Below, one piece after another: positions 21,405-57,338 of a DNA stretch of 64,000 nt. The translations under genes and the position numbers were made by a program. Each line of letters opens with the position of its first letter. The first letter of the stretch is position 1. Where the stretch lies: assembly GCA_021811435.1 (NCBI GenBank), contig JAJZOR010000001.1, positions 62,001 to 126,000 on the forward strand, in the 5' to 3' direction. This stretch comes from Microcaldota archaeon. Lineage in GTDB: Archaea; Micrarchaeota; Micrarchaeia; Micrarchaeales; Micrarchaeaceae. A model generated the notes under the pieces. It searched no databases. It was not told the origin of the DNA and saw only the letters and a list, made by a program, of their open reading frames with translations.

Positions 21405-22517
21405 CTAGGCGATTTCCGCGCTCTTTGTCTTGTCTGCACCGCGCTTGGCCTTCACAGTGCTCTGCTGCGCCGCGGCATTGCGCTCGGCAAGGTAATGGGA
21501 GAGCTTATGCTCCTCGCTTGCGAGCTGGTCCTGGGCGATGTCTAGCTGGGAGCGCGACTTCGAGACATAGTCGTCCAATTCCTTGATCCCGACCTTGAGC
21601 GCAGCCTCGTCCTCCTTGCTCAGGCTTATCACGCCGTTCTTGGCGTCGTCCAGCTTCTTGAGCCTGCGCTTCTCCTCCTCGCCCGCCATCTTGACCTGCA
21701 GCTTCAGCGTCACTACCTCGAATGCGGCGTAAGCTACAGGAAGCAGGCTCTTTACATAATCGTTGGTCGCTTTATCCATGTCGGTAGGCCTGAGCGACTT
21801 GTGTAGCAGGGTAGGCGTCTTTTCCGTCCCGTTGACGTCCCATTCGTAGACCGGCCAGCCGACGCCCTTGTTCTTGTCTATGAATGTCTGTATGAGCGCG
21901 TAGTTGATTGCGACCGCGTCCTCCCTGGCCCTGCCCTTGTAGTCAGGATAGTTCTTGAGTATCTCATCGAGCACCATCTGCGAGCGCGGATCCGGCCCTA
22001 CGGCCACGCTCTCGCCATACCCCAGCCTTATGAAGTCTGCTATAGGCGACGCTACCAGTTCCACCGACTCCTCCATGTGGTCTGGGTCCTTTATCTTGAA
22101 GATGGGCTTGGGGACGTAGTCCATGCCGAGCTCTGTCTTGAAAGTCTTCACCGCGCCGTTGGAGTTCATTGAGACGAGCAGCGTGGCATACCGCCCCTCG
22201 GGCGGTTGGCCCAGAAGCGATGCCCCACGATTCGCATCGTCCTTGAGCTTCGCGGTGACCGCACGCAGACCAGAATTTACATCCGCTATATGAGCGTCAA
22301 GGTCATCGTTCGGGTACTTGGCTAGGACGTCGCGTATTACTTGGATGCCCATCATGGCAACGTCCAGGTCGCCTGCCATCTGTACTATCACGTTTGTGCC
22401 TGGTATCTGGACTATCTTCTTGAAGTCCTCGGCGTAATCGTCCAGCCATATCGATACCTTGCTGTCAGCAGCAATGACCCTGCCGTCCTTGTATGATACA
22501 TCAGAAATGGTAGTCAT
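21405..22517 (-). CDS. Proteasome/HslV-like Ntn hydrolase with coiled-coil C-terminus
   Basis: 370 residues. After Met1 the chain starts TTISDVSYKDGRVIAADSKV. Counting the first Thr as residue 1, Asp falls at 17 and Lys at 33 (DFKKI), the proteasome/HslV catalytic register, with no propeptide. Residues about 170-245 (RLGYGESVAVG; DAVAINYALIQTFIDKNKGVG) match the second half of the fold, with an Asp equivalent to D166. The last 100 residues (about 260-350) form a charged coiled coil. This layout is not a standard alpha or beta subunit. Substrate and oligomeric state are unknown. Confidence 0.7.
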   Translation of the reverse strand: MTTISDVSYKDGRVIAADSKVSIWLDDYAEDFKKIVQIPGTNVIVQMAGDLDVAMMGIQVIRDVLAKYPNDDLDAHIADVNSGLRAVTAKLKDDANRGASLLGQPPEGRYATLLVSMNSNGAVKTFKTELGMDYVPKPIFKIKDPDHMEESVELVASPIADFIRLGYGESVAVGPDPRSQMVLDEILKNYPDYKGRAREDAVAINYALIQTFIDKNKGVGWPVYEWDVNGTEKTPTLLHKSLRPTDMDKATNDYVKSLLPVAYAAFEVVTLKLQVKMAGEEEKRRLKKLDDAKNGVISLSKEDEAALKVGIKELDDYVSKSRSQLDIAQDQLASEEHKLSHYLAERNAAAQQSTVKAKRGADKTKSAEIA

Positions 22518-22623: not shown

Positions 22624-23799
22624 TCATCTCCTCTGCCCGGAAAGCCCGGATATGAGGCGCGCTGCGCTAGGGAAGTTGCGCTTGCCGATCAGGCCTCCAT
22701 ATGCAGAATTCGCGTCTGCACCTTTTCGGATCAGGAGCCTTGCCATTTCCTTGTGGCCCATTAAAGCAGCCCACATTAGCGCGCTTTGGCCCTTTTTGTC
22801 CTTCCAGTTGATGTCTGCGCCCATGTCGATTAGCAGCTTGGCGCTGGAGGTGTTGCCGTACGCCACTGAGGAGAGAAACGCAACGTTTAGCAGATTCGCT
22901 ATGTGCCAGCGGATTCCTATGCTCGGGCTTATCTTCGCCGAGGTGCTGAATCCCTCTTTAGCCCTGGCGAAACTGCCCGTAAGCTCGTAATGCTCCTCGT
23001 GCTTCAGCCTTGTGTCGCTTATGCCTATATCGCACGAAAACTTAAGCTCGCCGAATTTAACGAGCAACAGTTCCGCCTTGGCGTATGGGACGGCTTCCAT
23101 GTCCGAATAGTCGGACGGGGAGAAAGGCGGCGATGCAACGGCCGGCTGCGACGCGCCGCCTCGGAATGATAGGCCGCTGCACAGGATACGCCATTCTACC
23201 ATGCGCGTCATGCAGGAATTCACGAATACGTTGAAAACGCGCTCCATTGCCGATTCTATGCCGGCGCTGTTCGAGAAACTTATCGAGTCTATCCTATAGG
23301 CGCTGAAGTCGTTGTATGACTGCATAGGGCTGAAAACCGCGCCTGACTTCAATAGCAGCTTGGCAAACTCAGCATGGCCATTTGACGTTGCTATGCACAA
23401 TGAGGTCCATCCCTTGCGGTCCCTCGCGTTAACCTTGGCGCCATGGCGCAGCAGGAGCCGGCCCATATCTGCGTCGCCCTCATATGCCGCCCTCATCAGT
23501 GCCGTGCCGCCGCCTATGTCTTCGGCATTCGGGTCTGCGCCGTTATCTAGTAACGTCTTTGCGATTTCGGCATAGCCGCCTTTCGCCGCTTTCATCAATG
23601 CGGTTTCGCCTATGAAATTCCCGTCGTTGACGTTTGCGCCCTGCGCTATCTCCAAGTTCGCCTCTGAGAGATTGCCGCTTATTATGGCGTTTATGAGCGG
23701 GGTATTGCCATCTGCATTCCGGTATTCCGATACGGATCCCACGCGCTTAAGGGACGGGAACCCTTTCTGGCCAGTACTTCCACTTGGCAGCATGTACAC
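22624..23799 (-). CDS. Ankyrin-repeat protein
   Basis: 391 residues. Four N-terminal ankyrin repeats (about residues 32-160; GNTPLINAIISGN, GETALMKAAKGGYAEIAKTLL, GTALMRAAYEGDADM, GWTSLCIATSNGHAEFAKLLL) and two C-terminal ones (about 300-370; GQSALMWAALMGHKEMARLL). A non-repeat segment of about 130 residues lies between them. Ankyrin repeats mediate protein binding. No signal peptide is visible, so it is probably cytoplasmic. Ankyrin proteins are not common in archaea, and a role in host contact would be speculation. Confidence 0.88.
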   Translation of the reverse strand: MYMLPSGSTGQKGFPSLKRVGSVSEYRNADGNTPLINAIISGNLSEANLEIAQGANVNDGNFIGETALMKAAKGGYAEIAKTLLDNGADPNAEDIGGGTALMRAAYEGDADMGRLLLRHGAKVNARDRKGWTSLCIATSNGHAEFAKLLLKSGAVFSPMQSYNDFSAYRIDSISFSNSAGIESAMERVFNVFVNSCMTRMVEWRILCSGLSFRGGASQPAVASPPFSPSDYSDMEAVPYAKAELLLVKFGELKFSCDIGISDTRLKHEEHYELTGSFARAKEGFSTSAKISPSIGIRWHIANLLNVAFLSSVAYGNTSSAKLLIDMGADINWKDKKGQSALMWAALMGHKEMARLLIRKGADANSAYGGLIGKRNFPSAARLISGLSGQRR

Positions 23800-26969: not shown

Positions 26970-28067
26970 TCATCTGTCTATCTCGGCGAGCACTAGGTCG
27001 AGGCTCCCCATTATCGCGAAGATGTCAGCGAACTTGACGCCGTCGCACAGCTTTGAAAGCACAGAGAGGTTTATGAAAGTGGGCGACCTGAGCGATATCC
27101 TGTAAGGCCTCTGCTTGTCTGGTATCATGTATATGAGTCCCTCGCCCCTCGGCAGCTCCCTCCTGGCTATCACGGTGTCAGGCTTCGCTGCCGGCCCTAT
27201 GAGCTTGACAGGGGCGCCCAGCACGTCGGCGTTCTCAGGCATCATAGAGAGGCACTGCCGTATTATCCTTGTGCTCTGGAGTATCTCCTCGTATCTGACC
27301 CTGTACCTGTCGAAGGAGTCGCCGTTGCGCATGACCGGGATGTCGAACTTCAGCTTGTCGTAAACGTAGTACGGCTGCGACTTCCTGACGTCCTCCCTAA
27401 CGCCGGAGGCCCTGAGGACCGGCCCGGAAACGCCGTAGTTGATTGCGTCATCCCTGCTCAGCGCGCCGACGCCCTTGGTCCTGTCCAGGAAGACCTCGTT
27501 CTTGTCCAGAATCTCTAGGTATTCCGGCATCGTCTTGTCTATATAGTCTATGAGAGCAGTCGCCCTCTCCTTGAAGTCCTTGGGCAGCGGCTGGTATAGC
27601 CCTCCAAGCCTCATGTTCACATAGAACATCCTGCTGCCTGAGACGTCCTCCAGCAGCTTTATTACCTTGGACCTGTCGCGGAACGCCCACATGAAAGTAG
27701 TGAACATCTGGCCAAGGTCGCTCGCCAGCGTGCCCATCCAGAGCAGGTGGCTGGCTATCCTCTGGAACTCCAGAAGCATGACGCGCGCGTATTGGGCGCC
27801 CTCCTTTACCGGAACGCCCATCGCCTGCTCGACCGCGGCCACGTACAGCTCGTCCCATGCCAGCGGGGCTATGTAATCGAGCTTCTCCATGTATGACGGG
27901 CTCTGCATGTACATCCTGGTCTCGCACAGCTTCTCCACTCCCCTGTGCAGGAAACCTATGTGGGGCTCGACCAGCTTCACGGTATCGCCATCGACATCCA
28001 CGACTAGGCGCAGCACGCCGTGAGTGCTCGGATGCACCGGCCCTACGTTTATCCTTACGACAGCCAT
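26970..28067 (-). CDS. nuoD: Complex I subunit D (49 kDa)
   Basis: 365 residues. It starts MAVVRINVGPVHPSTHGVLR, with the quinone-site HPSTHG motif, and has HIGFLHRGVEKLCE and, at the end, FADIFAIMGSLDLVLAEIDR. It is the quinone-binding arm subunit, related to the large subunit of NiFe hydrogenases but without the nickel cysteines. Its ATG overlaps the nuoC stop (TGATG), implying coupled translation. Confidence 0.96.
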   Translation of the reverse strand: MAVVRINVGPVHPSTHGVLRLVVDVDGDTVKLVEPHIGFLHRGVEKLCETRMYMQSPSYMEKLDYIAPLAWDELYVAAVEQAMGVPVKEGAQYARVMLLEFQRIASHLLWMGTLASDLGQMFTTFMWAFRDRSKVIKLLEDVSGSRMFYVNMRLGGLYQPLPKDFKERATALIDYIDKTMPEYLEILDKNEVFLDRTKGVGALSRDDAINYGVSGPVLRASGVREDVRKSQPYYVYDKLKFDIPVMRNGDSFDRYRVRYEEILQSTRIIRQCLSMMPENADVLGAPVKLIGPAAKPDTVIARRELPRGEGLIYMIPDKQRPYRISLRSPTFINLSVLSKLCDGVKFADIFAIMGSLDLVLAEIDR

Positions 28068-28447
28068 CAAATAGCCTTCTTGTAGTCCTTGCCCCATGCG
28101 AAGCTCTTCCTCAGCGGGAACTCGGTGCCGTTCCACTCTTCGAGCAGCAGCCGCTTTATCTCCCTCCCGTTTATCCTTATGCCGAACATCTCGCAGAGTT
28201 CGCGCTCGTACCAGTCCGCAGCCTTGTACAGGTGTATAAGCGTGTCTATCGAAGGGTCGCTCGGGTCGAGCTTCACCTTTAGGACTTCCATCTGCTTGTT
28301 GGCGGTGTTGTAAAGCACGTACACTACCTCCAAGTGCGTGACATAGTCGACTGCGGTTATCTTGTTCAGATAGTCAAACCCGCTCGCCTTCATGTCTCTG
28401 CATGTTTTCACTAACGCTTCTTTCGTTATTTCCTGCAACCCTACCAC
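28067..28447 (-). CDS. nuoC: Complex I subunit C (30 kDa)
   Basis: 126 residues, containing the NuoC core DPSIDTLIHLYKAADWYERE, MFGIRINGREIKRLLLEEW and FPLRKSF. It bridges subunits B and D. It overlaps the nuoB end by about 70 bases if GTG 28447 is the start; TTG 28438, with AGGTGG just upstream, is an alternative that shortens the overlap slightly. Confidence 0.93.
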   Translation of the reverse strand: MVGLQEITKEALVKTCRDMKASGFDYLNKITAVDYVTHLEVVYVLYNTANKQMEVLKVKLDPSDPSIDTLIHLYKAADWYERELCEMFGIRINGREIKRLLLEEWNGTEFPLRKSFAWGKDYKKAI

Positions 28448-29051
28448 CTATCTTATCCTGCAGCTTCATGAGCGCGCCGAAGAGGTTCTCCGGCTTCGGC
28501 GGGCATCCGCATGCGTAAACGTCAACCGGCAGCACCTGGTCTATGCCCTGCACTATGTTGTAGCTCTCCCACCAGGGGCCGCCCGATGTCGCGCATTCCC
28601 CGTATGCCACCACGTACTTTGGGGATGCCATCTGCTCGTAGAGCCTCTTTATCCTGGGAACCATCGACTTGGTCACCCAGCCAGCAACTATCATCACGTC
28701 GCACTGCCTTGGGGTGCCACGGAAAAGCAGGTAGCCCTTGCGCTCCGCGTCTATCCTTGACGCGCCGAAGTCCATCAGCTCTATCGCGCAGCAGGCCAGG
28801 CCGAACTGAAGCGGCCACAGCGAGTTGGTGCGGCTCCACTGCACCACATCCTTGGCCAGCGGGGTCAGCTTGGACAGGTCGCTGAGCTTGGCGAACACAG
28901 CATTCACTGGCGTCTTGGAATCTGTCTGCTTCGCCGAGTCGACAAGGAGCTTGGTCATCTCCTTCTCGGCGTTCATGAACTGCTCCACAGTGTACGGGGC
29001 ATTGGGCACCTTGCGCGACAGGCCCTGCATGGCCTCTGCATCGTCAGACAT
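28374..29051 (-). CDS. nuoB: Complex I subunit B (carries cluster N2)
   Basis: 225 residues. LQFGLACCAIELM gives the Cys pair and AYGECATSGGPWW and ACGCPPKPENL give the other two ligands of the terminal 4Fe-4S cluster N2. The N-terminal 65 residues are an extension compared with typical NuoB (about 160-180 residues). ATG 29051 follows GTGATA and overlaps the nuoA stop by eight bases. The C-terminal tail is also charged and extended. Confidence 0.96.
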   Translation of the reverse strand: MSDDAEAMQGLSRKVPNAPYTVEQFMNAEKEMTKLLVDSAKQTDSKTPVNAVFAKLSDLSKLTPLAKDVVQWSRTNSLWPLQFGLACCAIELMDFGASRIDAERKGYLLFRGTPRQCDVMIVAGWVTKSMVPRIKRLYEQMASPKYVVAYGECATSGGPWWESYNIVQGIDQVLPVDVYACGCPPKPENLFGALMKLQDKIGGRVAGNNERSVSENMQRHEGERV

Positions 29052-29400
29052 CGCTATCACTTATGAATTTGTAGGATATAAGGCCAAAGACCATGGCCAC
29101 GACCATTAGTCCCATCATTTCAAGCCCGGAGTAGTAGCTGACGTACCTGGCCACAGATGCCCAGAGCAGCACGACCACGGAGATTATCTCGAAGGGTAGG
29201 AACATGGCGAATATCGGCAGGTACTCTATCTGCACGATTAGACTGCTGCCTATGGTATCCTCTGCGCTCTCGTACGGCGCGTTCTTCACTGCGTTTTCGG
29301 GCAGCTTCTTCCTCATCAGAACCGAGGTTAGCAGGAGCGAGTAGGGAATGAAAAGCGCCATCACTATGAATATGATCAATGCCAGGTAGTTATATAGCAT
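29044..29400 (-). CDS. nuoA: Complex I subunit A
   Basis: 118 residues with three membrane helices. LPENAVKNAPYESAEDTIG is a variant of the NuoA loop motif (KxxPYECG), with Ser in place of the Cys. FDVEIVLL-like sequence reads FEIISVVLL here. It is first gene of the unit; GGTGCAC stands two bases before the ATG. Confidence 0.93.
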   Translation of the reverse strand: MLYNYLALIIFIVMALFIPYSLLLTSVLMRKKLPENAVKNAPYESAEDTIGSSLIVQIEYLPIFAMFLPFEIISVVVLLWASVARYVSYYSGLEMMGLMVVAMVFGLISYKFISDSDV

Positions 29401-50472: not shown

Positions 50473-51897
50473 TCAGAGCGCTAGCAGCGCCTTGCTCGCT
50501 GCCGATGCCGCGCTTATCAGAAAGTTAGGGTATACGCCCAGCAATATCGTAGCCGCCAGGGCGACGGCCACCACTGCGTACGTGTACCTGCCCATCGGGA
50601 GCAGCTCCTTGGACCTGCCGCTGTACATGTGGTCTATCACCTTGGCATAATAGTATATCGATATGAAGCTGTTGACTATGCCGAAGACCGCTAGGTATAG
50701 CAGCGCCCGAGTGTCTATCGCGCTGGAGAAGACGAGGAACTTGCCTATGAAGCCGAGCAGCGGCGGCACTCCGGCCATCGAAAGCATCAGTATTGCAAGC
50801 GAGGCTGCCGCGAACCTGTTCCTGTAGCCCAGCGAGTTGTAGTCGTCCAGCGTCCTGAGGTTCTTGGACTCCAGCCAGAGCACTATCGCGAACGCCCCGA
50901 TTATCATGAACAGATGGGCCACTATCTGCACTATGCTGGCCTCGATGCCGAACTGCGTGGCTACGGCCAGGCCGATCAGGATGTAGCCGGCCTGCGAGAT
51001 GGACGAGTATGCCAGTAGCCTCTTCACGTTTGTCTGCACCAGCGCCACTATGTTGCCGTAGAACATTGTGGCTATGGACAGCAGTATGAGCACTGGGCTG
51101 AATATAGGCTGGAACTGCACGAACAGCACGAAGAATATCTCCATGAGCGCTACGAACGCGACCTTCTTGTTTATGCCTGCCAGGAGCGCCGTGACGTTGC
51201 CCGGAGCCCCCTGGTATACGTCTGGCACCCACAGGTTGAAAGGGAATGCAGCCACCTCGAAACCCATCGCGGCCGCCACGAGTATTATCGACAGTATGAG
51301 CAGGTAGTTGCCCGCATTTGGCGTTATGCCTGTGAAGAGAGCGCTGCTCGACACCGGGGAGAGCGCCAGCTGCAGGTCGTACGGGAACACTAGGGCTATC
51401 GCGAACGACAGCGCGCCTATCGCTATTGCGCTCAGTATGAAGAGCTTCACCGCGGCCTCTATGTGGTACTTGCCGCTTGTCATTATCATGAAGGCGGTGG
51501 GCAGGGTCATGAGCTCCAGCCCCAGCAGTATGGTTATCAGCGAATTCGCCATGGCGACCACGAACATGCCGACTATGGCGAAGCTCAGGAACATGGAGAA
51601 GCGCGTGAAGTCCTGGTAGTGCTCATAGGACAGCGCATTGACCAGGAGGAGCGCGAAGGCGAACAGGCCGAGGAAGAACGCCGAGAACTGGTAAAGGTGG
51701 AATATTATGAATACTGTGACGTCGACGCCGGAGAGGAATGCGTACGCCGACAGCAGGAATATCAGGGCAAGCAGCGCGCTGCTCGCCAGGAACGCTGCAT
51801 GCGACTGCCTGCGCGGTATGGCGGCGAGCGGCACGACTATCAGGGCAAGCATCAGGGCGATTATCGCATGAGCAACGTAAAACGGGCCTATCAACAT
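50473..51897 (-). CDS. nuoN: Complex I subunit N
   Basis: 474 residues, 13-14 helices. An antiporter-like proton-pumping subunit: LGLELMTLPTAFM (Glu in helix 5) and KLFILSAIAIGALSFAI (Lys in helix 7 region), with AYSSISQAGYILIGLA. ATG 51897 follows GGTGTGATA at standard spacing, better than the GTG at 51903. Last gene of the nuoHIJKLMN unit. Confidence 0.95.
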   Translation of the reverse strand: MLIGPFYVAHAIIALMLALIVVPLAAIPRRQSHAAFLASSALLALIFLLSAYAFLSGVDVTVFIIFHLYQFSAFFLGLFAFALLLVNALSYEHYQDFTRFSMFLSFAIVGMFVVAMANSLITILLGLELMTLPTAFMIMTSGKYHIEAAVKLFILSAIAIGALSFAIALVFPYDLQLALSPVSSSALFTGITPNAGNYLLILSIILVAAAMGFEVAAFPFNLWVPDVYQGAPGNVTALLAGINKKVAFVALMEIFFVLFVQFQPIFSPVLILLSIATMFYGNIVALVQTNVKRLLAYSSISQAGYILIGLAVATQFGIEASIVQIVAHLFMIIGAFAIVLWLESKNLRTLDDYNSLGYRNRFAAASLAILMLSMAGVPPLLGFIGKFLVFSSAIDTRALLYLAVFGIVNSFISIYYYAKVIDHMYSGRSKELLPMGRYTYAVVAVALAATILLGVYPNFLISAASAASKALLAL

Positions 51898-51905
51898 TAT
51901 CACAC

Positions 51906-53318
51906 CTATAGATTAGCGAAACCGAGCAGCAGGAACGGGAATATGCCGAACAGCAGCATGGAACCCATCAGGAACGCGTAGCCTAGCTGCTGCTCTATCC
52001 CTATGTACTCCACAGGCTGCGACGGTTCCTTTGTCATCATGAAGGAGCGGTTTATTACCAGGTACATGAACGCGCCTATCATCAGCAGGCCGATGAGCGG
52101 GAGCGCGCCCGCCAGGCCGAAGGCCTGTATCGCGCCTATGAATATGAGCACGTCGGCCACGAACCCTGCGGTCAGCGGCACCCCAGTGACGCCGAATACG
52201 CCCATTATGAATGAGTAGCCTGTCGATGCGGCCCTGCTGACCACGCCCTTGACCACGCGCATGTCCCTGGACCCGAATATGTGGTGCATGCACCCTACCG
52301 TCAGGAACAGAAGAGCTATGGTGATGCCGTGCGCGAACATCGCGTAGGCCGCGCCGTACGTGCCGAAGGAGTTCATGGCCGCTATCGCCACCAGTATTAT
52401 GCCCATGTCTATTATGGTGGTGTACGCTATGACGCGCTTTATGTCGTGCTGCATCATGGTCACGAACGCCGAGTATATGGTAGAGAAGCCGGCCAGCAGC
52501 GCTATGGGTATAGCAAGGCTGCTGGCTATCGGGAACATCGTGAATATCAGCAGCATGCCGTACGCGCCGAACTTTGTCAGTACGCCGGAAAGCAGCATCG
52601 ATCCTTGCGTAGAGGCCTCGGTGTGGGCGTCTGGCAGCCAGAAGTGGAGCGGGAACAGCGGCATGTTGACCATGAAAGCTATGAACATTAATATGAATAT
52701 CATCTGCTGCGTGGCCTGCGGTATGGTCGAGGCAGCTGATGTTATGGCGCCGATATCGAACGAGTGCACCGGCGTGTAGAAGTATATCATCATTATGCCG
52801 AGCAGCAGCAGCGAGCTCGCGAATATCTCGTATATTATGAACTTTATCGAAGCATACCTCCTGTTGGCCGAGCCGAGGATGTTTATCATGAAGAACAGGG
52901 CTATGACCCCTATATCCCAGAATATGAAGAATATGAACAGGTTGGCGGAAGCGAAAAGCCCTATTGCGGAGAACTCGAACAGCAGTATGAGCGCATTGGC
53001 GGCCTTCTCGCGGACGCGCTCGGGATTGCCAGCCATCACAGCTCCGAACGCCACTATGGCAGTCATCAGCACCAGTATGAAGCTGATCGGGGTCAACTGC
53101 AGCTGTAGGCTTATGTCGAACGCGCTTATGTAGGGGTACTGCTCACCCATGCTCAGCGATCCCTGCAGCAGAGAGGTGACCAGTATCCATATGGTTATTG
53201 CAAGCACTATGCCAGAGCCGGCCAGCGCTATGCGCTTGCTTAGCTCCTGGTCTAGCGCTAATATGAGTATCGAAGCGAGGGCGGAGAACAGGAGCATGAG
53301 ACCTATTAGTATAGTCAT
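51906..53318 (-). CDS. nuoM: Complex I subunit M
   Basis: 470 residues, about 14 helices. FIFWDIGVIALFFMINI (helix 5 region; the usual Glu-Leu pair reads WDIGVI, Asp in place of the conserved Glu), MPLFPLHFWLPDAHTEASTQGSMLLSGVLTKFGAYG (helix 7-8 broken region; key residues FPLHFWLPDAH and K). AYTTIIDMGIILVAIA is conserved. It pumps protons in the membrane arm. Confidence 0.95.
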   Translation of the reverse strand: MTILIGLMLLFSALASILILALDQELSKRIALAGSGIVLAITIWILVTSLLQGSLSMGEQYPYISAFDISLQLQLTPISFILVLMTAIVAFGAVMAGNPERVREKAANALILLFEFSAIGLFASANLFIFFIFWDIGVIALFFMINILGSANRRYASIKFIIYEIFASSLLLLGIMMIYFYTPVHSFDIGAITSAASTIPQATQQMIFILMFIAFMVNMPLFPLHFWLPDAHTEASTQGSMLLSGVLTKFGAYGMLLIFTMFPIASSLAIPIALLAGFSTIYSAFVTMMQHDIKRVIAYTTIIDMGIILVAIAAMNSFGTYGAAYAMFAHGITIALLFLTVGCMHHIFGSRDMRVVKGVVSRAASTGYSFIMGVFGVTGVPLTAGFVADVLIFIGAIQAFGLAGALPLIGLLMIGAFMYLVINRSFMMTKEPSQPVEYIGIEQQLGYAFLMGSMLLFGIFPFLLLGFANL

Positions 53319-53322
53319 GGTA

Positions 53323-55116
53323 TCACAGGGCGAAAAGCAATATCAGGGCGAGCAGGCCGAGCATGAATGCGGCGACATACAGGTTAGTCTGGCCGTTCTG
53401 CAGCCGCCTCAGCCGGTTGCCTATCTCAACAAGGCCCATGCCGGAGTAATACAGCAGCCGGTCGATGTAGTGGTCGAAGCGCCACACTACGTTGGCCGAG
53501 AGCATTACGAAAGCGGCGAAGTAGTTGTAGAGGACGTTTATCTCAGCTCCGCTGTTGAACGCGCCGCGCAGCACCTCGTGTTTCTCGGTGAAGCCGCTCA
53601 ACCTCATCTTGACGTAGAGCAGGTATGCGATGGCCAGGCCCGCTAGCACGAGTATGGTCTCTACAACAGTGTCGGATACGCCTATAGATACGGGAAGCCC
53701 GCCAAGCGGCAGGAGGTTGGTGAGCGTGACGTAGAACACCGAGCCTATTATCACGAAAGCCGCGAGTATGGTTGGCGGTATGAGCATAGACTTTGGCAGC
53801 GTCCTGTAGTTTATGTTGAGCGTGAACGCCTTCTCGAGCGGCGCCTTCCTCATCGGCACGAAGAGCCACCTGAATATGTATATGCTGCTAAGCAGGTCGA
53901 CCACCGATAGCAGCACATAGAGTATTATGTTGGGCAGCGATGAGAAGTTGGCTGCCACGGAGTCTATCGCAGCCTTGCCGAAGAACCCGCTCATAGGGAA
54001 TATGCCTGCGAGCGACAGCGTCCCTATGACCATGGTTATAAAGAGACCCCTGTTCTTGGTGGAATTGAAGCTCTCGAAGAGGTCCTCCTCATCGTCGCCT
54101 GCGGTCATTATCGAGCCCGCGCTCATGAACAGCAGCGCCTTGTAGAATGCCTGGACTATGAACAGCAGCACGGCGGCGTAGAGCGCGTTGAACCCTATCG
54201 CTATGAACATCAGGGCAAGGTCCTCTATGGTTGAGTACGCCAGTATCCTCTTTATGTGGTGCTCAGCGAGAGCGTTCATGGCACCGACGAGCGCGCTCAC
54301 TATGCCGAATATCACGAAGAGGTTGAGTATGTGCAGATTTGTGTATATAGGCGCAAGGATCAGTATCAGGAACACTCCGGCCTTGACCATTGTAGATGAG
54401 TGGAGGAATGCCGATACCGGAGTCGGGCCCTCCATCGCGTCGGCGAGCCACTCCGTGAACGGGAACTGTGCGGACTTTGTGAATGCGGCGACTGCTATGA
54501 GTAGCATTGCTGCGTAGAGCGCAGGGGTGGCGGCCGCCGAATAGAGCGCCAGGAACTCGAACGTATGGTAGGTGCTCCATATCAGCAGCATAGCGATGAG
54601 CATGGCGACGTCGCCTATTATTATCGTGGTTATCGCCTTCCTCGCTGCGAGCTGGGCCTTGGGCTTGTACTGCCAGAATCCTATGAGCAGGTAGCTTGTT
54701 ATGCCGAGCATCTCCCAAGCTATGAACAGTGATATAAAGTTGGCCGATATTGAGAACAGCATCATGGACGCCGCGAATATGCACATCTCGAAGTAGTATC
54801 TCCCCTGCTCTGACGGGGTCTTCAAGTAGCCTATCGAGTACGCGAATATCAGCGGGGTTATGCCTGCGACTATAAGCAGGAGCATGAGGTTGATAGGCGC
54901 GGTGGTGGTGGAGATGTGCACGGCGTACTGGCCGACGTTGAACCAGATGAACTGCTGCACCATGTTGGAACTCGTGAGCAGCAGGGCCACAGCTATCAGC
55001 AACGAGATCACGCTGGCGCCAAGCGCAACATAGCGCACCAGCGTGGTCCTCGACCGGAGGATCACTGCCAGGAACGCCGCGACGACTAATGGCACTATTA
55101 CTAGTAGGGCGAGCAT
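53323..55116 (-). CDS. nuoL: Complex I subunit L
   Basis: 597 residues. FIAWEMLGITSYLLIGFW (Glu), KAITTIIIGD (Lys region), FPFTEWLADAMEGPTPVSAFLHSSTMVKAG (helix broken region; key residues TEWL-DAMEGPTPVSA) and ILAYSTIEDLALMFIAIG. The C-terminus includes extra helices and a piston-helix-like region (about 470-590). ATG starts one base after the nuoK stop region (TGACATG). Confidence 0.96.
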   Translation of the reverse strand: MLALLVIVPLVVAAFLAVILRSRTTLVRYVALGASVISLLIAVALLLTSSNMVQQFIWFNVGQYAVHISTTTAPINLMLLLIVAGITPLIFAYSIGYLKTPSEQGRYYFEMCIFAASMMLFSISANFISLFIAWEMLGITSYLLIGFWQYKPKAQLAARKAITTIIIGDVAMLIAMLLIWSTYHTFEFLALYSAAATPALYAAMLLIAVAAFTKSAQFPFTEWLADAMEGPTPVSAFLHSSTMVKAGVFLILILAPIYTNLHILNLFVIFGIVSALVGAMNALAEHHIKRILAYSTIEDLALMFIAIGFNALYAAVLLFIVQAFYKALLFMSAGSIMTAGDDEEDLFESFNSTKNRGLFITMVIGTLSLAGIFPMSGFFGKAAIDSVAANFSSLPNIILYVLLSVVDLLSSIYIFRWLFVPMRKAPLEKAFTLNINYRTLPKSMLIPPTILAAFVIIGSVFYVTLTNLLPLGGLPVSIGVSDTVVETILVLAGLAIAYLLYVKMRLSGFTEKHEVLRGAFNSGAEINVLYNYFAAFVMLSANVVWRFDHYIDRLLYYSGMGLVEIGNRLRRLQNGQTNLYVAAFMLGLLALILLFAL

Positions 55117-55117
55117 G

Positions 55118-55417
55118 TCAATCCCTCAACCCAGAAAGTTTTGTAACGTCCATTGTCGACTCCTCCTTAAGCATGTACTGGTAGAACGCTATCAGCGCGA
55201 TAGCCTCCACCGCAGCGATGGCCCATATGGAGAAGAGCAGCAGCACTATCTGCCCGTCCGCATAGTAGTAGAAGAAGCCCACCGCGAGAAGCGTGGCGGC
55301 CACGAGCATGACCTCCATGGCCAGTATTATCATCACGAAGTGCCTGCTTGCGACGATGCCGGCTGCGCCTATCGCGAACACGAGGACTGAGAGCAGTATT
55401 ATGAACAGAGGGATCAT
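55118..55417 (-). CDS. nuoK: Complex I subunit K
   Basis: 99 residues, three helices. HFVMIILAMEVMLVAATLL (Glu of the central proton channel) and IWAIAAVEAIALIAF (second Glu) are the conserved acidic positions. Its start overlaps nuoJ's end by four bases. Confidence 0.95.
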   Translation of the reverse strand: MIPLFIILLSVLVFAIGAAGIVASRHFVMIILAMEVMLVAATLLAVGFFYYYADGQIVLLLFSIWAIAAVEAIALIAFYQYMLKEESTMDVTKLSGLRD

Positions 55418-55905
55418 TTCTTAGCACCGTGCGCCCTTGCCATCTTTATCAGCAGTATCGCGCCCAGCGAAACCGCGAAAAGAAGCAGCATGATAAGGTA
55501 GAACAGCGGCAGCCAAGACGAGAACGTGCCCGCTATGCCGCCGGGCTGGACCGTGTTGTCGGACTGCGGCCCGAAAGCAATGGAAAGCAACGGGTAGGAG
55601 AGCACCGCGAATATCAATATGGACAGAGGCACGAGCACGCCCACCCTGGCGTGCTTGAAGCGCGCCAGTCCCGGAGCTGCGACTCCCACGAATATGTAAA
55701 CTGATATGCCACCGACCATTATGAACAGCTGGAACACCGCGAGCAGCGGCTGGTTTAGGAATGCAAACACCAGGGAGGTTATGCCGAACACTGTTGAGAG
55801 CGCTATCGCGGAATGCATTAGGTTCCTGAAGAGGAATATCGAGTATGCTGCCAATATCTCAATCGCCGCTATGGCAATGAACAACAAGGTATCAAGGCTA
55901 ACCAT
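55414..55905 (-). CDS. nuoJ: Complex I subunit J
   Basis: 163 residues from ATG 55905 (MVSLDTLLFIAIAAIEILAA). Five helices; the third contains FQLFIMVGGISVYIFVGVAA, equivalent to the pi-bulge helix of NuoJ with Gly-Gly-Ile. It overlaps nuoK by four bases. A longer upstream frame is rejected because it lies inside nuoI in another frame. Confidence 0.9.
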   Translation of the reverse strand: MVSLDTLLFIAIAAIEILAAYSIFLFRNLMHSAIALSTVFGITSLVFAFLNQPLLAVFQLFIMVGGISVYIFVGVAAPGLARFKHARVGVLVPLSILIFAVLSYPLLSIAFGPQSDNTVQPGGIAGTFSSWLPLFYLIMLLLFAVSLGAILLIKMARAHGAKK

Positions 55906-55916
55906 TTGAACACTGT

Positions 55917-56279
55917 TCACTCCAGGTCTTCGGGCCTCTTCACGTATTCCCTCCTGTCGTACTTGACGAAATCGTAGTCCTTGGTCAGGGTGAGGCACCT
56001 AGTCGGGCAGACCTCCTCGCAAAGTGCGCAGTAGAGGCACCGCTCGAGGTTTATCTCGGGCATTTTCTTGACGCCCTTCTCGGTGTCCACTTCCACCATC
56101 GTTATCGTGTTGTTCGGGCATATCCTCTCGCAGGCGGCGCAGCTTATGCAGGTCTTCATGTCGAGCTTGTGCACGCCCCTGTAGTTGTCCGTCAGGTCCT
56201 CCTTCTCCTCCGGGTACTCCAGCGTGGTGGGTTTCTTGACTACTTCCTTAACGACGCTGCCGATGGATTCTATTATCAT
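55917..56279 (-). CDS. nuoI: Complex I subunit I (two 4Fe-4S clusters)
   Basis: 120 residues. CISCAACERICP and CLYCALCEEVCP are two ferredoxin-type cluster sites (N6a/N6b). It passes electrons to NuoB. With EFG absent, the electron donor must dock here or on BCD, for example a ferredoxin or F420H2-type module; none is visible in the window. Confidence 0.96.
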   Translation of the reverse strand: MIIESIGSVVKEVVKKPTTLEYPEEKEDLTDNYRGVHKLDMKTCISCAACERICPNNTITMVEVDTEKGVKKMPEINLERCLYCALCEEVCPTRCLTLTKDYDFVKYDRREYVKRPEDLE

Positions 56280-56288
56280 GCGATCACT

Positions 56289-57338
56289 TTACTTTATAAA
56301 CAGGACGAACGTGAGCATAAGGTTGAGCACCGCGAGTGGCATCATGTAGACCCAGCCGAACTTTATCAGCCTGTCCAGACGCATCCTGACTGTGGTGGCC
56401 CTTACCACTATTATGAACACGGTAAATATAACAACCTTTATTAGCAGCCATGCGAATGGCGGGAGGAAGCTCGGCCCGATCCATCCGCCGAAGAACAGCA
56501 CCACGATGAGCAGAACGCCGGCCAGCATCCTTATGTAGTCCAGCAGCAGCACTAGGCTGTAGTACGGCGCGCTGACATCGGTAAGCCACCCCGCTATGAG
56601 TTCGCTGTCAGCCTCCCTTATATCGAAAGGTGGCCTCTCTGTCTCCGCCAGCATCACTATGAAGAACAGCACCGCGCCTATAGGCATCAGTATTACGTAC
56701 CAGGTGCTGCTTTGCTGCGCCGCGACGATTGACGCCAGGCTGAATCCGCCTGCCAGCATGGCGGCAGTGGCAACGACCAGTATGAGCGGAATCTCGTAAC
56801 TAAGCAGCATCACGACCGATCTCTGCGCTGCTATCGAGCCGAACTTGTTGCCGCTGGTCCATCCGGCAAGGAACACGAGGAGGGGCACCAAAGCTACTAG
56901 GAGGAACACGACCACTAGGCTGAGGCTTGAGTTTATGGCTACGAAATTCGATGTAAACGGTATGAAGGCCAACATCACGACGAACGTGGCCACCATCATC
57001 GGAATTGTCATCTGGAACAGGGGCTTGTCCGCCTCCGCAGGTATTATGTTCTCCTTGGTGACCAGCTTTATCAGGTCGGCCAGGTTCTGCAATATGCCCC
57101 ATGTGCCTACGTATGTAGGACCGTGCCTCGACTGCGCCCGCGCTATCATCTTCCTCTCTAGCCATCCGAATATATAGGCAAAAAGGCTGAAGAATATGGA
57201 AAGCGCAATCGCGAATACGACTACGCCTATGATCATTGATATTATTGATGAAGCCGTGGGGTTCGGAAGGAGATTGGATACCAGCGGCTGGATCAGATTG
57301 TACAGGCCGTTCACCGTGCCGGAGCTTATCTGTGCCAT
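56289..57338 (-). CDS. nuoH: Complex I subunit H
   Basis: 349 residues, eight to nine helices. RKMIARAQSRHGPTYVGTWGILQNLADLIKLVTKE (quinone-site loop; key residues R-RxGP-GILQ-AD-KL--KE) and ETERPPFDIREADSELIAG (acidic loop) are the diagnostic regions. It anchors the membrane end of the quinone tunnel. First gene of the second nuo unit; GGCGGTC precedes the ATG. Confidence 0.96.
   Translation of the reverse strand: MAQISSGTVNGLYNLIQPLVSNLLPNPTASSIISMIIGVVVFAIALSIFFSLFAYIFGWLERKMIARAQSRHGPTYVGTWGILQNLADLIKLVTKENIIPAEADKPLFQMTIPMMVATFVVMLAFIPFTSNFVAINSSLSLVVVFLLVALVPLLVFLAGWTSGNKFGSIAAQRSVVMLLSYEIPLILVVATAAMLAGGFSLASIVAAQQSSTWYVILMPIGAVLFFIVMLAETERPPFDIREADSELIAGWLTDVSAPYYSLVLLLDYIRMLAGVLLIVVLFFGGWIGPSFLPPFAWLLIKVVIFTVFIIVVRATTVRMRLDRLIKFGWVYMMPLAVLNLMLTFVLFIK

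Follow-up and report, generated by a model that had tools for sequence, protein, structure and literature searches.

Prokaryotes usually encode one or a few proteasome-like proteins. A survey by Fuchs, Alva and Lupas (Fuchs et al. 2021, PMC8665760) covers 22 such homologues, which have Thr1, Asp17 and Lys33 in common together with Gly47. Within that set, propeptides are absent outside beta and HslV, C-terminal coiled coils are predicted in WPH, ACC and some PHI besides helix H5 of Anbu, and connectase, which is archaeal and monomeric and has the triad as well, works as a ligase (PMC8665760). Micrarchaeota, DPANN and a multi-copy expansion go unmentioned in that survey, and our literature searches found no description of a proteasome-like expansion in Micrarchaeota. 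What is new here is such a lineage-specific expansion, to which the gene studied below (P0001) belongs, while its type of tail is already known.

The P0001 gene and its predicted active site

P0001 lies in the window, the whole stretch of 64,000 nucleotides that was analysed, which comes from a genome of 1.1 Mb at 93% completeness. Its open reading frame, on the minus strand at 21405-22517, opens with ATG, and the 370-aa product begins MTTISDVSYKDGRVIAADSK. Numbered without the Met, the residues discussed here are T1, T2 and I3, D17, K33, and G48, the equivalent of Gly47. The features of the locus are as follows:

21405..22517, minus strand: P0001 coding sequence, stop codon included, 370 aa, propeptide-less proteasome-like Ntn hydrolase
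22512..22514, minus strand: Thr1 codon (ORF residue 2), next to the ATG and predicted to encode the nucleophile; invariant in 32/32 members of the family
22464..22466, minus strand: Asp17 codon (ORF residue 18); invariant in 32/32
22416..22418, minus strand: Lys33 codon (ORF residue 34); invariant in 32/32
22371..22373, minus strand: Gly48 codon (ORF residue 49), equivalent of the proteasome oxyanion Gly47; invariant in 32/32
21783..22517, minus strand: predicted catalytic core, residues 1-245, with strands, H1/H2, strands, H3/H4, strands (AlphaFold2 secondary structure; hhalign of the family against 20S beta)
21408..21782, minus strand: C-terminal tail, residues 246-370 (35% charged), two long helices predicted as coiled coil and a low-confidence basic end (AlphaFold2 model)
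22624..23799, minus strand: ankyrin-repeat protein gene, 107 bp upstream of P0001 on the same strand (Pfam Ank_2, E 1.8e-37)

The Pfam proteasome family PF00227 matched P0001 at E 0.0074 (16.4-17.5 bits), under the 22.4-bit cut-off, and exceeded that cut-off in the orthologues from G001 (26.9 bits) and G003 (24.8 bits). Searched against the PDB, the family profile matched 20S beta subunits (E 1e-6), Thr1 falling on Thr1, and hhalign of the family against the canonical Micrarchaeota 20S beta gave E 1.2e-12 over 178 columns. The HslV profile match was weak (E 0.26-0.28), Anbu was not among the significant sequence matches (5lox, E 0.77 with a 4-sequence profile), and PHROGs and NCBIfam searches with P0001 gave nothing convincing. 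Ser129, Asp166 and Ser169 are not recognisable in the alignments, which are weak in the second half. The exact Thr1/Asp17/Lys33 pattern that the sequence-only reading had picked out was confirmed, being in register with PDB beta subunits and invariant across the family; the lack of a propeptide that it reported likewise stands, the initiator codon lying immediately before Thr1 in P0001 and its orthologues. On these alignments P0001 is a genuine proteasome-like relative with its predicted active site intact.

Orthologues of P0001 occur in 5/5 genomes of the genus. As G002 and G004 share one identical copy, the group comprises four distinct sequences: P0001 and three others, whose identities to it are 70, 43 and 31%. 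Thr1, Asp17, Lys33 and the oxyanion-hole Gly are kept in 4/4 of them, so the loss of Thr1 and Lys33 among orthologues, named beforehand as an outcome that would speak against a proteasome-like enzyme, was looked for and not observed. Because the triad and Gly are invariant both in the 4/4 orthogroup sequences and in the 32/32 of the family, the pattern exceeds chance. Purifying selection on P0001 is strong: against the G002 orthologue we obtained dN 0.22, dS 1.59 and dN/dS about 0.14, with dN lower in the core (0.14) than in the tail (0.39; tail dN/dS about 0.2).

Predicted fold and C-terminal tail

The AlphaFold2 model of P0001, built on an 8-sequence alignment, has pLDDT 76 and pTM 0.59, and runs through a strand pair, strands, H1, H2, strands, H3, H4, strands and two long helices. 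Foldseek with this model returned Anbu and proteasome subunits as best matches (E about 1e-6) at an rmsd of 16-19 A, which indicates that core packing in the model is poor; with VIA-align, Z reached at most 9.4, over 91 residues. The AlphaFold2 model of a 262-aa paralogue (pTM 0.82) matched Anbu at Z 17.7 and rmsd 2.9 A over 200 residues, and 20S beta subunits at Z about 17, with Thr1 superposed on Thr1. Given a good paralogue model and poor packing in that of P0001, the proteasome-like fold is well supported by prediction for the family, and for P0001 we infer it. The Ntn fold proposed from sequence is thus supported through the paralogue, and a model lacking the Ntn sandwich did not arise in the monomer prediction that had been suggested as a check. 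In the P0001 model, helices span residues 51-67 and 73-102 and no helical insertion falls between strands 33-37 and 43-49; with H1-H2 present and the two-helix S3/S4 insertion absent, the model would place P0001 outside the connectase type.

The tail helices are predicted at residues 249-293 and 301-369; as far as residue 350, most pLDDT values lie in the range 82-95. A heptad signal is clear in the first helix only (period 3.45), the second having no 3.5-residue peak. The coiled-coil tail was correctly noticed in the sequence-only reading as far as its presence goes, but not in its supposed novelty, since Anbu, WPH, ACC and some PHI have such tails after the fold (PMC8665760). The tail architecture of P0001 has precedent and is not novel in kind. 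Elsewhere in the family, a basic motif ([K/R][S/T][K/R] or [S/T][K/R][S/T]) occurs within the last 20 residues of 13/32 members as against 19/188 neighbouring ORFs. This enrichment is suggestive, and the basic Ser/Lys-rich C-terminal tail of many paralogues is perhaps a targeting or binding signal.

A genus-specific expansion and its genomic setting

Profile searches of the window genome identified eight full-length proteasome-like proteins besides P0001 and the canonical alpha and beta. Across the genus, a genome of ~1.1 Mb can contain as many as nine full-length homologues that diverge from one another and have no propeptide, alongside ordinary 20S alpha and beta, and the five genomes together hold 32 distinct full-length members of 262-391 aa. 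Identity to P0001 is mostly 16-23% for members outside its orthogroup, and only T1, G11, D17, K33, G48 and G173 are invariant across the 32-member alignment; its first column carries a Met imposed by the script and has no evidential value. Checked codon by codon, 26/28 members have an ATG or GTG initiator directly 5′ of Thr. Both exceptions come from FK3.bin83: in one (L073:4494-5399, plus strand) GGG replaces ATG before Thr1 and the frame starts MAVRRFG|T, similar to the propeptide junction (Gly-Thr) of canonical beta, although its orthologues begin MT, and in the other the codon is ATA. As FK3.bin83 is a low-coverage bin, errors in the sequence could account for the two.

The loops between Asp17 and Lys33 vary among paralogues, and the family insertions fall there. 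A divergent sub-group (L092:2945-4844 and L090:2854-3786), present as two tandem copies in YP2.bin58, has a first hairpin five residues longer and keeps Thr1/Asp/Lys. On contig 6 of the window genome, a 152-aa remnant (L089:3816-4271, plus strand) has the family N-terminus followed by unrelated sequence; it is a decayed paralogue and shows turnover in the family.

In a maximum-likelihood tree, canonical alpha and beta stand apart from the expansion on a long branch with 100/100 support; being midpoint-rooted only and having long branches, the tree shows just non-orthology to 20S beta, plus the orthogroups. That of P0001 (100/100) is the only orthogroup found in all five genomes and is the most widely conserved of the genus-specific expansion. 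Outside the genus, the same searches in 164 genomes of the order gave at most two matches per genome, normally a single canonical beta, and a 295-genome sample of the phylum searched with an earlier profile agrees. Single-copy propeptide-less homologues occur in a few other Micrarchaeota genera (L035, L049, L052 and L065); they are the best profile match of the expansion (hhalign E 1.2e-16) and fall on its side of the tree, away from canonical alpha and beta. A 145-aa match in G031 (L005, G031:C20:1646-3580), 100% identical to the P0001 tail, was rejected as an orthologue from another genus and is most likely a misbinned short contig. We also rejected a phage or mobile origin, there being no tblastn match in phages or plasmids and none in viral contigs, and viral structure models giving only generic fold matches. 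A contig scan with the single motif MTVIAxIPY, a narrow test that leaves the P0001 group outside, found Micrarchaeota MAGs only; the MAGs matched by homology were 'Candidatus Micrarchaeota archaeon' FK3.bin83, clean615 and YP2.bin58.

The proposed genome search for standard proteasome subunits found both: an ordinary 20S alpha (L011) and an equally ordinary beta with a Gly-Thr junction (L010) are present in the window genome. HslU had no match at E 1e-3 in the five genomes (60-96% completeness), in which controls were recovered 14/14, and PAN had no match over cut-off in the genome search. Cdc48-type AAA proteins are encoded, and methionine aminopeptidase II scored over cut-off in 4/5 genomes.

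The four loci compared have a common neighbourhood, with a kinase gene, cytidylate-kinase-like by eye, close to P0001 or its orthologue. Comparison of neighbourhoods across orthologues gave no conserved operon partner, and the cytidylate-kinase-like and ribosomal neighbours were set aside as merely positional. The order of ankyrin gene and P0001 is the same in G002 and not in G001; the ankyrin-repeat protein is a possible but unproven partner. Ankyrin genes adjoin paralogues in L018 and L072 too. Paralogue genes are scattered over the genome, with no paralogue operon except tandem pairs. In one sub-clade (L067, L069, L074, L077, L080 and L081), 6/6 members have, within about 10-40 bp on the 3′ side of the paralogue, a gene whose product is a small conserved protein of ~150 aa:

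L067:12419-12886, small conserved protein gene
L069:5650-6111, small conserved protein gene
L074:3119-3580, small conserved protein gene
L077:3526-3990, small conserved protein gene
L080:5812-6519, small conserved protein gene (236 aa)
L081:5235-5684, small conserved protein gene

No Pfam match was obtained for this protein in the two scanned. Small protein and sub-clade paralogue probably form a two-gene operon, the former as a dedicated partner; P0001 lacks this neighbour gene. Elsewhere in the window, subunits of a complex I-type NADH dehydrogenase were recognised by eye in two separate minus-strand blocks at 26973-29400 (NuoD/C/B/A-like) and 50476-57338 (NuoN/M/L/J/I/H-like), which is notable for a reduced DPANN genome.

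Proposed activity and comparison with known systems

We consider it reasonably probable that P0001 is a competent threonine amidohydrolase, proteasome-like yet outside the canonical alpha and beta, independent of an ATPase and held together by its coil, with both activity and assembly putative. The encoded methionine aminopeptidase would strip the Met and expose Thr1, whose hydroxyl would be activated by Lys33 with support from Asp17, Gly48 contributing the oxyanion hole, as invariance and alignment register suggest. Since H1-H4 are present, unlike in connectase, oligomerisation is plausible, and the protein may form a small homo-oligomer through these core elements and the C-terminal coiled coil. 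The coil might connect layers that face each other, in the manner of H5 in Anbu, though it could mediate something else than layer-to-layer contact. With HslU absent and no PAN over cut-off, P0001 is likely to work without ATP or to rely on a shared ATPase. Its substrate would be either polypeptide that is unfolded or exposed or one particular peptide amide, cleaved with no dedicated ATPase, and each paralogue may have its separate preference.

Hydrolase and ligase cannot be distinguished from sequence. A rather unlikely reading is that P0001 is, like connectase, a protein ligase or processing enzyme of high specificity, monomeric or of low order, forming a Thr1 acyl-enzyme from one recognition motif and transferring it to another N-terminus or to water. 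A monomeric archaeal homologue with the same triad does act as a ligase (PMC8665760). The failure to find a dedicated unfoldase (no HslU, no PAN over cut-off) agrees with it, and divergent paralogues with variable Asp17-Lys33 loops would fit specialised recognition; those insertions, however, sit before S3/S4, where connectase has its two-helix insertion, P0001 has both helix pairs where connectase lacks H1-H2, and the long coil suggests assembly. P0001 might also be one of several subunit types in a hetero-oligomer composed of the paralogues, a prokaryotic counterpart of the diversified eukaryotic beta ring. Nine full-length paralogues in one small genome, their predicted active sites all intact and their genes scattered like those of eukaryotic subunits, would suit such a particle. 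Species repertoires differ, however, and the P0001 group alone is present in all five genomes, so that a fixed stoichiometry is unlikely; nor are the paralogues in an operon, tandem pairs excepted, and we regard this arrangement as improbable.

The proteasome of some archaea uses two beta subunits, and the genome that carries P0001 has genes for canonical alpha and beta too; P0001 might be an alternative catalytic beta subunit between the alpha rings of the ordinary 20S particle. We give this very little weight, as P0001 stands apart from canonical alpha and beta in the tree, has no propeptide, and would need a C-terminal tail of about 125 residues and a long insertion after residue 125 to be accommodated. 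Slighter still is the likelihood that P0001 is a catalytically retired scaffold or regulator that has kept only the fold. Ser129/Asp166/Ser169 are not recognisable and no partner is known, which would fit a retired protein, but T1, D17, K33 and the oxyanion Gly are invariant across paralogues at only about 20% identity, whereas a subunit that has been retired, 20S alpha for example, loses Thr1. On a wider and frankly speculative view, to which we attach a low probability, these ~1-Mb genomes would maintain a private set of about nine Thr-protease or ligase particles, self-standing or of mixed subunits and differing in specificity, analogous to eukaryotic beta diversification and possibly tied to a presumed symbiotic or acid-habitat life.

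About nine divergent copies with predicted intact active sites, next to a normal 20S proteasome in one reduced genome, would be a natural laboratory for the diversification of specificity and assembly within one Ntn fold. The paralogues are candidate new Thr-proteases or ligases, for which connectase, a useful protein ligase, is the precedent, and what sets them apart (absence of a propeptide, a coiled-coil tail of two helices, a conserved partner gene in one sub-clade) makes concrete tests possible.

Among described systems, connectase resembles P0001 as an archaeal, propeptide-less proteasome homologue with the same triad, and differs in lacking H1-H2, in carrying the two-helix S3/S4 insertion and in being known from methanogens. 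HslV shares Thr1, the two helix pairs and a weak profile match, but has no tail, and its HslU is absent from the genus of P0001. The 20S beta subunit (PF00227) has the same fold with catalytic residues in register; unlike P0001 it has a Gly-Thr junction propeptide and S129/D166/S169 and assembles with alpha, and L010 is the true beta of the genome. The single-copy homologues of other Micrarchaeota genera (L035, L049, L052 and L065) share the MT start, the triad and Gly with P0001, and differ in length (230-314 aa), in copy number, in a GSG/GNG-type motif instead of GxD and in lacking Tyr8. ACC (Archaeal homolog with Coiled Coil) and WPH (Widespread Proteasome Homolog) are alike by description only, being archaeal (ACC only in archaea) and propeptide-less, with a predicted C-terminal coiled coil and the triad conserved. 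Anbu (PDB 5nyw, 5lox) is bacterial and has one C-terminal helix, H5, where the predicted tail of P0001 comprises two helices and about 120 residues, and the S7-S8 region of P0001 is long. Anbu shares with P0001 the predicted fold, Thr1/Asp17/Lys33, the absence of a propeptide and a predicted C-terminal coiled-coil helix, and is among the best structural matches of both the P0001 model and that of the 262-aa paralogue.
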